Below, one piece after another: positions 21,423-39,400 of a DNA stretch of 64,000 nucleotides. The notes below the pieces were generated by a model. It did no database searches. It was given only the letters and a program-made list of their open reading frames with translations, and was not told where the DNA came from. Source of the stretch: Paragorgia papillata (Eukaryota; Cnidaria; Anthozoa; Scleralcyonacea; Coralliidae). Both the position numbers and the translations under genes were made by a program. The stretch is taken from assembly GCA_035771165.1 (NCBI GenBank), contig JAWNZC010000445.1, positions 3,255,001 to 3,319,000 on the forward strand, in the 5' to 3' direction. Position 1 is the first letter of the stretch; every line of letters begins with the position of its first letter.

Positions 21423-24400
21423 GAAACCACTCCCATTTTTCCTTCACCAACACCATGAGCAGGCTAAAAAGACAGAAGCAAGTGTCATAATAATCATTGT
21501 ACTCACATGCATCAAAACAGACTAATAAAGACTCTTGGATTTCAAGTAGAGGTCGGATTGACCCCTTATAATCCGAGAATTTGCCTAAACTGTCAATCCT
21601 AATCCGCTCCGAAGCCATAAAATCGTAGTCCGATCCCATCCGAAAACAGCTGCTCAAATCCGATCCGATCCGCTTCGAAAAAGTTAAAACACCGGATATA
21701 TGTTGCAATAGTTGCGTGAACTTTCCGAAAAGAAAACCAATGAACAAATAAATTTAAGAAAACTAATATACAATATTACATTTGTATACCATGCCTATAT
21801 TACACGGACGATTTCAAAAAAAATTTCAAAGCACGCGTGCCATTGTGCCATCGACGTATCTAGGTCGGGTGTTTAAGAAGCATATTTGGCCTTCCTTGGA
21901 AGTTTTACCATTAAAACTACACTGTCTCAAGACGTATAGTCCACTTTCATAAAGTCCTTCACTTTAAATATTCGTTTATGTGCATCTAAATGAGCCTTTC
22001 TGAGTTTCTTGCCTCCTTATGAAGCAAAGATTCTTTTGAATTGCAGACACACAAACGAGGATAGAAAGCTTATTAAGATGCACATAAAAGAATGTTTAAG
22101 TTATTAAGTTAGTCGCTATTATGAAACTGGTGTGCTGTATGGTGTAAAAGGTGTTCCGCGTGCATACATTTTCAAAAGAACTAGGGGGCTCTTAGTTGGT
22201 GGGATAAAGTTATTTTTTCAGTAGAACTGAGGCAATACCAAACGAACGACAGTGTTAATACTTTATGTACATTCATGCATGCAAGGCAAGATGTTACTCA
22301 TCAGAAGAAATATAAAAAATGCAGGACTTCGTGTATTTGCGATAATCGACATAATAATGTTGAGTACAGTACAGCCATAGATACGGCCGTGCCAGCGTGC
22401 CTTCGTGCCTTGACAGTAATAATGTTGAGTACAGCCATAGATACGGCCGTGCCAGCGTGCCTTGACAGTAATAATGTTGAGTACAGCCATAAATACGGCC
22501 GTGCCAGCGTGCCTTCGTGCCTTGACAGTAATAATGTTGAGTACAGCCATAGATACGGCCGTGCCAGCGTGCCTTGACAGTAATAATGTTGAGTACAGCC
22601 ATAGATACGGCCGTGCCAGCGTGCCTTCGTGCCTTGACAGTAATAATGTTGAGTACAGCCATAGATACGGCCGTGCCAGCGTGCCTTGACAGTAATAATG
22701 TTGAGTACAGCCATAGATACGGCCGTGCCAGCGTGCCTTCGTGCCTTGACAGTAATAATGTTGAGTACAGCCATAAATACGGCCGTGCCAGCGTGCCTTC
22801 GTGCCTTGACAGTAATAATGTTGAGTACAGCCATAAATACGGCCGTGCCAGCGTGCCTTCGTGCCTTGACAGTAATAATGTTGAGTACAGCCATAGATAC
22901 GGCCGTGCCAGCGTGCCTTGACAGTAATAATGTTGAGTACAGCCATAGATACGGCCGTGCCAGCGTGCCTTCGTGCCTTGACAGTAATAATGTTGAGTAC
23001 AGCCATAGATACGGCCGTGCCAGCGTGCCTTCGTGCCTTGACAGTAATAATGTTGAGTACAGCCATAGATATACGGCCGTGCCAGCGTGCCTTCGTGCCT
23101 TGACAGTAATAATGTTGAGTACAGCCATAGATACGGCCGTGCCAGCGTGCCTTCGTGCCTTGACAGTAATAATGTTGAGTACAGCCATAGATATGGCCGT
23201 GCCAGCGTGCCTTCGTGCCTTGACAGTAATAATGTTGAGTACAGCCATAGATATGGCTGCATCATTATATTCCTGTTTTTAAAGATCCCGGCTTTTTCCA
23301 TTCCAGTTTTTAAAGATTCCGGATTTTTCTATATCTGTTTTTAAAGATTCCGGCTTTTTCTATCCCTGTTTTTAAAGATTCCGGCTTTTTCTATCCCTGT
23401 TTTTAAAGATTCCGGCTTTTTCTATCCCTGTTTTTAAAGATTCCGGCTTTTTCCATTCCTGTTTTCAAAGGTCCCGGCTTTTCCCGTTCGTGTTTTTTAA
23501 GGATCCGGCTGTTTTACGCGTTCCCTGATTGGGTGCCTAGGTCTGATACCGCGCACGCTCAGTTTATAAAAAGAAGATATTAATATTTGATATCCAATGG
23601 TATTTAACATTATCTGGACACGTGACGGGTACTCTGCACGTGTCGTAATAAAAAGACTGGGAACATTTCACATCGGTCTTCTTCATCCTTCAATTTCGAG
23701 TTTTCGACGAAGAATATTCTCTCCTCAACACGGTAAGTAAATTTACTATTTGTTTTACTTGCAAAACGTTGCACATTTATATTCTATGTTTCGTCAGTTC
23801 ACTGACCTTGTTGTATTTGTATTTGTCTACGCAGGACCATGAGCACACCACGGACACCAGTTTCCCCGATAAAAGGTCTTTCCGTTAGGGAAGATCAAAG
23901 TGGTTCTCGTGCTCTTCACACTAAAGTTGCAAAAGAACGATATAGATGCATATCTAATTTTTACTTCAAATTGGATGCTTTTGTAAAGTTTCCTGGTAAC
24001 AGCAGATTTAATGGCTTTATTCTCAACGTTCACCGCACAGATGGTGTGTCAATGTAAGTACAGTCAAACCTCTATTAAGCGGCCTCCTATTAAGCGACTA
24101 ACCCTTTTCGCGGCGTCCCATTGACTGATTTTCAGCGGCCAAGAGGTACTTTCTTTACGGCATGCTACGAAACTCGGAATTAAAATCATATAAATTTCAA
24201 TAAATATCGTAATTCGTAAATCTTTAAAGGTGGTTACAGTCCATTCTGCGCATATACCAAACATAATATTAAACATGGTTTTACATGTGTTCCGTGTTCG
24301 AAAATGGCGTTCGTGACATGGCTTGAGATCTGGATTAATCTGGTAAGTTTTCTAAATTTATGTTTTGTTATTTTTTGTCGGAATTGCTGAATCACCCAAA

Positions 24401-36400: not shown

Positions 36401-39400
36401 TTCTAGTGAGAATACACATAATATTTTCCAGTGAGAGTACCAGTATTGATATTCCAATACTTTAAGACTTCCAGCCACCTATTCCCACCAGATTTGTGTG
36501 ATATGCTCATTAAGCTATGCTGGCTACATGAGTAAAGGATATAAGCAGATTTTTTAGGATAAAATAAACTACCTTCTGTTTGGGTCTGGTTTGAAAAAAT
36601 TGATCCATACTTCTCAATCCCAACTTCATAGACATCATTATATGCCTCTGCGAAACCACTGAATGAAACCCAACAGTGATTGCTAAAATAAACATTGGAG
36701 AAAGACTAAAAACACATGAAATAAAATGTTATAATAATCTTTAAATAATGGCATGAGAAATTCCTATTTGGTAAATTGTTTTATAGCTTTTCGCTGCCTT
36801 TTAGTATTGCCCTACCCTGGTTAACATTGACAGCAGAAAAGTCCATGAAGATGAACTTTTTGATTAGGCACTTTAAACACATCTCATGGATCCCCATTGT
36901 AATCTTCACATTTACACATTTATTGTGTACCTTTGACCACTGATTTAGTCTCACACAACCTTAACTAATTTAGTTGTGTATAGCATAACACATTTAAGCT
37001 TAGTTAAATCAAGTACTGTTCCATTACTTCACTAACCTGAGAGCTGGGAACCATTTGTATAATTTCAAATCGATGTATGTAACATCACTAATTTCCACCA
37101 AGTTGACTTGAAAATCTTTGGGGTAGAAATGAGCTCCTATTTTATCGTCGTAGTTGCATATACCATAAACATGAGAACAGTTCCTGCACTCTAAAGTAAC
37201 CTTTGTACAAGGAACAGGACCATCCAATGTAAATAACTTGGCCTTCGATGGATTGTTTCGAATTGTTAGTTTCTTTTCGCACTGCATACACAGCGAGACT
37301 GGTGGCGTTAAGAATTTATTAAATGACATTTCCTCGCTCTCGGTGAGCCGCCACAAGTGTTCATCCGAGTCATTCAGACCAACAAAAGAAGCACAATACG
37401 TTTCAGCGAAGTTCATATACAACGACATGTCCTCCACTGACAGATTTGAACAATATTGATTTGCCGTAGCCATACTCGTAAATAACTTGTGAACGAGAGT
37501 CGCTCGTAAAGGAACTCCATTTATAATACGAGTTATGTTACCTGGAACATGTCTTAACACAGTTCGTAAGTTACAAAGACTTGTCACTGACAATTTACTG
37601 GCAAGCAACTGAAGTGCTTCTTCTTCGCTTACAGGCAATCTGTCAGACAACAAGCGCTGAAGATCGACATCATTTACTGCCGCAATTCTTTCCCGAACTT
37701 CACCAACATAACTGTTGTTTGCTGCAGCTTTTACCTTTATTACTTCGTAATCTAATAGAGCGGCTGGTTTCCTCTTTCTTCCCTGTTTGTTTGACATTTT
37801 TTAAATAAATAGACTCGCTAGCGCTCAAAGCCGACGCAACCGGGACGTTCTGGGACGGAGCCTGGCGCTTAGTTATGGCTATGGCACGATGGCACGCGTG
37901 CTTTCAAGCATCAGAGTGAAGTCTCAGTGTAATTTAGGCTACATTTGGTAATATGTAATATATAATATATAATAAATAATATATAATAACAATCAGAGAC
38001 TGCAGCATACCTCCCCCTGACGGGTATTCTAATCCACCTATTTTACTTTTAAATATACTTACAAGCAAGTCTTTCTTTATAAAAGTCCAAGAACCGACTG
38101 TCCAAAAGTCACCAATAAATATTCTGTACGGAAATCACTGGGATGCATTCCGATAACGGACTGATTAACTGATTTCATTAGCGTTTCTTTCACTCATGGT
38201 TTGAATTCCGCCATTTTGATTATTTCCGAAGAATTTTCCGAAGACCTTTCCGAAGGACACACGAACGATAGGGTAGCCTCACCCTATGTTATTAAGTGCC
38301 GACCGATAATACATTTCCTACCCATAATTCATGTTGATAACATCGTTTCCAGGCCTACGACTCGAGAACATGTAAAAAGTTCGACTTATTAAATACGCCA
38401 AAAATACACCGTATACTATAACTCAACCGAACAATTTCATAATTTGGGTCGACCCTAATAGGTATTTTATACGGCGCATGAAAAATACGCCCTTTATATC
38501 ACAGATCTAAGTGAATCTGCAATACATCCAGAAAACCTAATTTGCATAAAATCTGCGGCTTACCATTAACACAATATTATCTCTAGATATGAAACGCTAC
38601 AAGTATTTCAATAATCCAGACTACCACTAGAGCTATGCAATGAACTAGAAGGAAACTTGTGAGACTTGTGCAAAATGTTTTTATAAGATAAACGTAATTA
38701 AGCTATGAGATGTTAATTGACGTTGCCGTAGCTTGCATGAGATGTTTATTGATGTTACCGTAGCTTGCATATAACTGACCTGTCAATTTCTGCAGTGAGT
38801 TTTTTTGCGGTTTGTTGTAAATTTCTAATCAAAGCGTCTGTATCTGAGACAGGAATTACTTTGCTTTCCTAAAACAAACAGCACAACAATAAACCAAGAT
38901 TCACATACAGTATAAACCCAATATTAATAAGCCTATAAGAAACTTTGGCTAAAATTTGAAATGTTGTGCCCACTAACACGATTGGAAATAGCGGCTGTCG
39001 AGGCTCGCGAAATACGGGCTGACCCGTATTAGAGCTCTACGCATGCGTAGAACGAATATCTTGCGTGTAATCGTCAATACCACTGATCTCAAAAGAAAAC
39101 TGGATAGTGCAACCTACTGTCCACTGGTTCATAAAATGAAGCCAGCGAAACAAAAGAAATCCGTCATTACTAAGGGACCAAACATGCTGAAAAATGTCTT
39201 TATGTCTTCTTAAAACGTCTTCTGTACCAAAAAAGAATATTGAACTATATTTTCTTTCAAAGATTCAGCATCTCATTCAACAAAATGTTTATATCGGTGC
39301 CAGAATACGCTAGAAAGACCATCACTTGGTCCCTTAGTAATGGGTGACTTCCGGCTTCATGTTGTAAACAATAGATACTTAATCCAGTTTTATTTCGAGA

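Follow-up and report, generated by a model that had tools for sequence, protein, structure and literature searches.

A mobile two-gene DNA transposon of Paragorgia papillata that pairs a KDZ-like transposase with a P-loop ATPase bearing a PHD finger

Tn7 (TnsABC), Mu (MuA and MuB) and IS21 (IstA and IstB) each combine a DDE transposase with a P-loop ATPase in one element, and DNA transposons that use two proteins, one of them a dedicated ATPase, form to our knowledge a bacterial theme. Here we describe a mobile unit of 16.16 kb in the anthozoan Paragorgia papillata, in which a KDZ-like transposase gene converges on a partner gene that encodes a P-loop ATPase, a predicted coiled coil and a PHD finger. 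The unit lies in a stretch of 64,000 nucleotides (contig JAWNZC010000445.1 of assembly GCA_035771165.1, positions 3,255,001 to 3,319,000 of the forward strand), hereafter the window, and coordinates given without a contig are counted from its first letter.

Among described elements, the fungal Kyakuja produce 7-bp target-site duplications (TSDs), lack terminal inverted repeats (TIRs), end in CA..TG and carry a TET/JBP gene (PMC12730594). Carriage of accessory genes has been described for KDZ elements of fungi and for giant transposon families of a brown alga (PMC12730594, PMC12477816). Zisupton, of fish and other animals, is an animal member of the KDZ group (PMC12062965, PMC9297572), with an 8-bp TSD (PMC12730594) and a CxC7 domain, one isoform adding an F-box (PMC12062965/PMC9297572). 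Among genomic islands, the Rep protein of SaPI works with iterons that lie beside its helicase gene (PMC7581432).

The whole unit spans 21785..37948 (without assigned strand), its edges being the points at which a second copy, on contig C419 at about 2491540-2507701, ceases to match. The two copies are 99.86% identical over 16,172 aligned bases and their flanks are unrelated; the genome searched comprises 617.9 Mb in 473 contigs, and match counts from genome searches are lower bounds throughout. Differences occupy 26 alignment columns, divided among microsatellites (18), single-base indels (4) and substitutions (4). The original prediction had placed one unit between matched ends at 21773 and 37961; the single unit stands, and its edges move inwards. 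It had also placed both genes inside one mobile element, which the C419 copy bears out, carrying both between different flanks and within a 7-bp direct repeat, ATTTTCT. Two other accounts are ruled out: a KDZ element of one gene that merely adjoins an unrelated host gene, given that both genes are co-mobile in C419, and a shared segmental duplication, given the unrelated flanks and the TSD. A match of this quality across 16 kb, partner gene included, implies that the entire unit has recently moved or had its sequence homogenised. A 7-bp TSD was found in five of the seven copies whose ends were examined (C419, C98, C414, C430 and C75); no exact 7-mer was found within the stretch searched around the C351 copy, and the window copy has none at its ends. 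The family is a recently mobile two-gene DNA transposon of 16-18 kb with TATACCATGCC-type termini and 7-bp TSDs, recent homogenisation being the alternative explanation of the low divergence.

The termini were fixed with the help of C98, C414 and C430, which form a related family in close agreement where compared, and of C75, which represents a third type. The terminus at the partner-gene end (21785..21805, plus strand) reads 5'-TATACCATGCCT..., and its terminal 11-mer is common to C98, C414, C430, C75 and C351; this end starts TATACCATGCC (TATACC..). The transposase-end terminus (37928..37948, minus strand), identified by comparison of ends, reads 5'-CCAAATGTAGCC..., the TSD-flanked C75 copy having TCAAATGTAGCC; by type it starts TCATATG (C98 type), TCAAATG (C75) or CCAAATG (window type). 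Termini of the Kyakuja kind, CA..TG without TIRs, were not found in these copies, which end in TATACC.. and in TCATATG../TCAAATG../CCAAATG... Inside the termini lies a subterminal motif, GCACGCGTGCCATTGTGCCAT at the partner end (21831..21851, plus strand), whose inverted counterpart at the transposase end (37881..37901, minus strand) was recovered by inverted match and by motif search. The two ends agree at 25 of 27 positions around GCACGCGTGCCATCGTGCCAT (BLAST E 3.4e-6), and the terminal ~21 bp also match, imperfectly, so that the inverted repeats of the original prediction were recovered. In the window type GCACGCGTGCCATCGTGCC stands just inside both ends, with one mismatch at the partner end. 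At the window copy, the bases directly outside the partner end (21777-21784) are CAAATGTA on the minus strand and repeat the first bases of the window's transposase end, C-CAAATGTA (37940-37948); this repetition may point to an insertion that is unusual or was rearranged, or may be a coincidence of AT-rich sequence.

Between the partner-end terminus and the partner gene lie about 15 copies of a 60-bp tandem unit (22368..23257, plus strand; Tandem Repeats Finder, TRF, and motif search) with 11 iteron-like GCGTGCCTTCGTGCC sites related to the terminal motif, followed by eight copies of a 31-bp tandem unit (23268..23515, plus strand; TRF). A search of the window with the terminal motif returned 13 matches, of which 11 fall in the array and one at each end, 0.00 being expected. 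In the window type, the first 1.8 kb contain CGTGCC 42 times and CGTACC not at all, and the middle 14.2 kb contain CGTGCC once; the C98 type reverses this, with one CGTGCC and 21 CGTACC in its first 1.8 kb, and none and two, respectively, at its transposase end. CGTGCC also prevails over CGTACC in C16 (23 vs 1), C351 (35 vs 0) and C75 (25 vs 0), the transposase end of C75 holding one of each, and the long middle parts of elements contain one to three of each. Array and terminus thus agree in motif type, CGTGCC or CGTACC, which amounts to one contrast between two types. Arrays with a period of about 60 bp (units of 60-62 bp) stand at the partner end in the window, C98, C75 and C351 types, and we read them as putative binding sites for a protein of the element.

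The transposase gene (32208..37797, minus strand) has nine exons (37797-37037, 36682-36573, 35485-35435, 34962-34737, 34057-33812, 33723-33688, 33602-33513, 33206-33032 and 32709-32208) and is open in C419, where it encodes 731 amino acids. The spliced C419 product matches the cysteine-cluster domain CxC5 (PF18718; E=3.6e-12, 46.9 bits, cut-off 26.9), which 31 rows of the genome search also match above the cut-off, those on C445 and C419 among them; the Pfam model of the KDZ core, PF18758, gave no match to this product at E<=5. The KDZ-type gene foreseen in the original prediction, with its nine exons, cysteine cluster and YDNMC and CEQTF boxes, was found, its core unmatched by PF18758. Since CxC5 groups it with KDZ transposases and PF18758 fails, the transposase appears from its sequence to be a divergent KDZ-like lineage with a partner of its own. 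The YDNMC box (32571..32585, minus strand) is proposed as the second catalytic D by its by-eye parallel to the D[IV][IV]C of this genome's PF18758 matches, and the CEQTF box (32376..32390, minus strand) as the catalytic E by its parallel to DGE..ER.WS, the PF18758-side string being DGEVMERMWS; the motif order YD..C, H...H, E....W is alike by eye, an HLKNH box included. An hhalign comparison of four transposase sequences with six PF18758 matches gave E 0.38. Other KDZ transposases are plentiful in the genome, with at least 96 PF18758 matches, none of the 96 lying within 20 kb of the 74 compared rows of the CxC5 transposon family and none of the 31 CxC5 matches lying within 20 kb of a PF18758 match. 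When 5.8 billion proteins were searched and the 7,994 candidates with the most shared words scored, P0004 of Paramuricea clavata came out closest, being 66% identical over 95% of the length and spanning exon joints. An additional exon at 34315-34233 was rejected: it breaks the frame, and C98 splices the neighbouring exons without it. Between the two genes, at 31861-32127, stands a diverged second copy of the segment encoding the last transposase exon, present in C419 too.

Set beside Kyakuja and KDZ elements (PMC12730594), the family resembles them in its 7-bp TSD, in an accessory gene beside the transposase and in a cysteine-cluster domain that Pfam names after KDZ transposases; it differs in its TATACC.. 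ends, inverted subterminal motif, iteron-like array and ATPase-PHD partner, and PF18758 is unmatched. Zisupton differs in having an 8-bp TSD and CxC7, as opposed to 7 bp and CxC5 here, and the available portions of its descriptions (PMC12730594, PMC12062965, PMC9297572) mention no ATPase partner.

The partner gene (23839..31606, plus strand) has 11 exons (23835-24053, 25914-26236, 26406-26682, 27290-27593, 28665-28923, 29410-29595, 29737-29998, 30584-30964, 31046-31099, 31176-31217 and 31377-31606, plus strand) with consensus splice sites, and an open frame of 843 amino acids in C419. As a correction to the original prediction, each of the two genes is frameshifted in the window copy by a single extra base relative to C419, which reads through both. 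The alignment places these at 25980..25980 (plus strand) in partner exon 2 and 34813..34813 (minus strand) in transposase exon 4, and either may be a mutation or an assembly error, at 25980 an error in a homopolymer.

The Walker A motif, coiled coil and PHD-like finger that the original prediction had assigned to the convergent partner were recovered. A Walker A sequence, GETASGKST (27316..27342, plus strand), is followed by a Walker-B-like box and an RSFERT box, and GKST, WDDP and RSFER are invariant across eight aligned sequences, an alignment in which N-terminal columns cannot be invariant because P0003 lacks that part. The coiled-coil exon (30584..30964, plus strand) is a long, charged, heptad-like stretch by eye, with generic weak matches to Pfam coiled-coil models. 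The C4HC3 PHD finger (31463..31600, plus strand) matches PF00628 above the cut-off of 24, at 33.0 bits for the exon (E=6.3e-8) and 26.5 bits for the whole protein (E=6.6e-6), and the nearest solved chains include PHD fingers of the chromatin proteins SHPRH, ASH1L, PHF20, PHF2 and DIDO1 (E 1.6e-4 to 9.3e-3). Protein searches, one of which scored the 7,991 candidates with the most shared words, found five relatives of the partner, four in Paramuricea clavata and one in Exaiptasia diaphana; P0001 and P0003 of Paramuricea clavata span several partner exon joints. The relatives of both element proteins come from anthozoans, in keeping with an anthozoan, probably octocoral, host. The introns hold two hairpin-like inverted repeats, at 27696-28153 (119-bp arms, 90%) and 28953-29145 (79-bp arms, 87%), which resemble nested miniature inverted-repeat transposable elements and lie inside the stretch that also matches C419.

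Across the genome, searches with transposase exons returned at least 45 matches (exon 1) and 55 matches (last exon), and searches with partner exons at least 71 (exon 4), 22 (exon 7) and 24 (PHD exon). Clustering of 35 of the 45, 39 of the 55 and 64 of the 71 rows for exon 1, the last exon and exon 4, respectively, extra pieces of the same loci being omitted, gave 56 transposase loci and 49 partner exon-4 loci. Eleven of the latter have a transposase within 20 kb, against 0.18 expected under uniform placement, and 10 of these 11 pairs are convergent; one of the 49 lies within 20 kb of a PF18758 match. The same arrangement is seen for exon 7, with 10 of 22 rows near a transposase and all 10 convergent, and for the PHD exon, with 17 of 24 rows within 6 kb of a transposase and 14 of those 17 convergent. 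The deepest pair, C234 compared with C419, is about 35% identical in the partner and about 29% in the transposase. Over six pairs (C419, C16, C98, C437, C234 and P0001/P0004 of Paramuricea clavata) the identity matrices of the two genes correlate at 0.968, a value reached by 2 of 720 permutations, the identity permutation included. The comparison uses the N-terminal part of the transposase because C16 and C437 hold no more, and excludes C351 and C18 because their partner genes are incomplete; as the pairs share ancestry, the correlation shows joint inheritance, not interaction. In both genes synonymous change is at or near saturation and replacement change is low, which indicates purifying selection on each; the PHD exon, with pN 0.39 and pS 0.67 (replacement and synonymous change) over 39 codons, is a sample that says little. 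The records of Paramuricea clavata give a contig of 63,673 bases for both the partner P0001 and the transposase P0004, one of 23,589 bases for both P0007 and P0005, and others for P0003 and P0006; judged by equal contig size alone, both pairs appear to be linked. The co-inheritance raised in the original prediction is thus borne out, with convergent pairs recurring in diverged copies whose distances correlate and whose genes are under purifying selection.

Several observations weigh against an obligate partnership of this kind. Copies without the ATPase, or ATPase homologues that are single-copy host genes and never neighbour a KDZ gene, had been named in the original prediction as refuting its two-component system, and some copies do lack the ATPase core. 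No transposase of the CxC5 family lies within 20 kb of 38 of the 49 exon-4 loci, half of them (19 of 38) on contigs C97, C98 and C303, where rows crowd. Exons 4 and 7 occur together without a nearby transposase on C280, C166, C97 and C98, with more similar cases on C130, C65 and C405. In C351 and C75 the partner retains a partial first exon, exons 6 and 7 and the PHD part, the ATPase core being unmatched, and the C75 copy is TSD-flanked all the same; the transposase of both has an internal gap as well. C16 has a long partner gene beside a transposase reduced to its first two exons. The strict C4HC3 pattern was found in 4 of 11 regions scanned (C419, C98, C75 and C351) and is absent from the fetched C437, C86 and C234 stretches, at which loci the PHD-exon genome search likewise gave no row. 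A 10-kb region, C303:57500-67499, consists of tandem units of ~2.4 kb with the ATPase exon and without a transposase match; the partner gene may have seeded a macrosatellite here, or the array may belong to a different element. On C18 (270000-289999) the arrangement is divergent, a fragment of the partner gene standing 1 kb upstream of a related transposase.

Unpaired relatives, the crowded rows on C97, C98 and C303 among them, would fit a partner that is a passenger, picked up from the host by chance and carried by the element ever since. We consider this very improbable: the convergent pairing recurs in deeply diverged copies, the two genes diverge in parallel under purifying selection, and the finding of only five relatives among the scored proteins gives no sign of a broadly conserved host gene. 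A better case can be made for an accessory gene that stays outside DNA transfer and counters host repression or regulates the element, as has been proposed for TET/JBP genes of fungal transposons. Such genes are on record in fungal KDZ elements and brown-alga giant transposons (PMC12730594, PMC12477816), and the C351/C75 type has lost the ATPase core and kept the PHD part. Set against this are the invariance of GKST, WDDP and RSFER in eight sequences and the closeness with which the partner tracks the transposase, and we judge the accessory role unlikely.

What kind of ATPase the partner encodes was approached by profile and fold searches. The original prediction had described a DUF927-like layout, which the profile searches do not support: the DUF927 model (PF06048) matched none of eight aligned partner proteins at E<=10 and gave no genome match at E<=10 where the positive control, Methanosarcina acetivorans, was matched, results that count against the helicase assignment proposed below. 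What points towards replicative helicases of the DUF927/SaPIBov1-Rep type are weak structure matches and weak matches of phage-primase models. Those fold searches rank replicative helicases and primases of phages and islands first, all matches being weak, with SaPIBov1 Rep as the top-ranked, likewise weak, structural match of the N-terminal domain; matches of phage-primase hidden Markov models (HMMs) are weak, and the ATPase core was modelled with low confidence. Foldseek against the PDB with the first ATPase model reached a best E of 0.16, sorting-nexin PX domains appearing weakly, and a PDB profile search with the partner alignment returned six chance-like rows (subtilisins, ABC transporters). 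Pfam models applied to the eight partner proteins yielded AAA_18 in one of eight (E 9.4e-4) and weaker matches otherwise, an NCBIfam search with the partner gave nothing informative, and tblastn of P0001 against phages found no match.

Our preferred reading, which we put at about an even chance, is that of a two-gene transposon whose partner is an AAA+ helicase of the DUF927/SaPIBov1-Rep type, akin to phage and island proteins, that aids transposition at the array. In animals the helicase would have gained a coiled coil by fusion and, across much of the family, a PHD finger too. The likeness to SaPIBov1 Rep and SCCmec Cch (DUF927, MCM-like initiator helicases) lies in the weak top-ranked fold match of the N-terminal domain and in the iterons (PMC7581432); the differences are the lack of a DUF927 HMM relation, the fused coiled coil and PHD finger, and the setting in an intron-bearing gene of an animal transposon.

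The original prediction had instead cast the ATPase as a target selector, the counterpart of TnsC, MuB or IstB, which would form a nucleotide-dependent platform on DNA and recruit the transposase to chromatin picked by the PHD finger. That the element holds a transposase together with a P-loop ATPase, that the PHD exon is within 6 kb of a transposase in 17 of 24 rows and that a PHD finger would make a natural chromatin address all fit such a role. However, the first-ranked folds, weak as they are, belong to replicative helicases and primases, with SaPIBov1 Rep the best match of the N-terminal domain, and the strict PHD pattern and the PHD-exon row are both wanting at C437, C86 and C234. No row named TnsC, IstB or MuB stands among the fold-search matches listed, which excludes nothing. 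Unlike Tn7, Mu and IS21, the element is eukaryotic, its ATPase appears to be of another type and its partner bears a PHD finger. We regard target selection as distinctly unlikely; the more general proposal, that the ATPase serves the KDZ transposase, gains from the single mobile unit, the convergent recurrence, the parallel divergence and the purifying selection, and loses the analogy to TnsC, MuB and IstB.

The helicase reading also has a stronger form, in which the life of the element includes an extrachromosomal or replicative phase, with the partner as initiator helicase and the array as origin. Iterons adjoining a Rep helicase gene are the arrangement of SaPI (PMC7581432), and arrays of ~60 bp period occupy the partner end in four types of the family. 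Yet the TSDs and clean termini imply ordinary integration of the transposase type, the arrays carry the terminal motif, so that binding of the transposase alone could account for them, and a scan of 10 of the open frames found no primase or polymerase domain. Autonomous replication is accordingly rated unlikely. These alternatives overlap with the preferred reading, and their probabilities are not meant to sum to one.

Under the preferred reading of a helicase partner, the transposase would recognise the CGTRCC motif at both ends, and it or the partner would additionally load onto the array; the ring ATPase of the partner would then unwind or remodel the element end, or prime copying, during transposition, and the PHD finger would hold the complex on chromatin. 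Taken as a whole, a cut-and-paste-like animal transposon with a Rep/DUF927-like ring helicase at an iteron array, a KDZ-like transposase and a PHD tether, whose transposition is helicase-assisted or replicative, is possible but doubtful.

Elsewhere in the window, 31-bp satellite arrays at 53984-55300 consist of units related in opposite orientation, and at 62496-62588 about 15 imperfect CTAACC copies make up a short contig-internal repeat of telomere-like sequence.

Among the titles, abstract openings and passages returned by searches of open-licence PMC papers, Repbase being outside the search, no element of the KDZ or Zisupton kind was found to have an ATPase or PHD partner; the original prediction likewise knew of no such KDZ element. 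The family is recent, includes a copy in which both genes are open and carries type-specific candidate binding sites; with these, the idea of a eukaryotic transposase that works with a helicase-like partner and a chromatin reader becomes directly testable.

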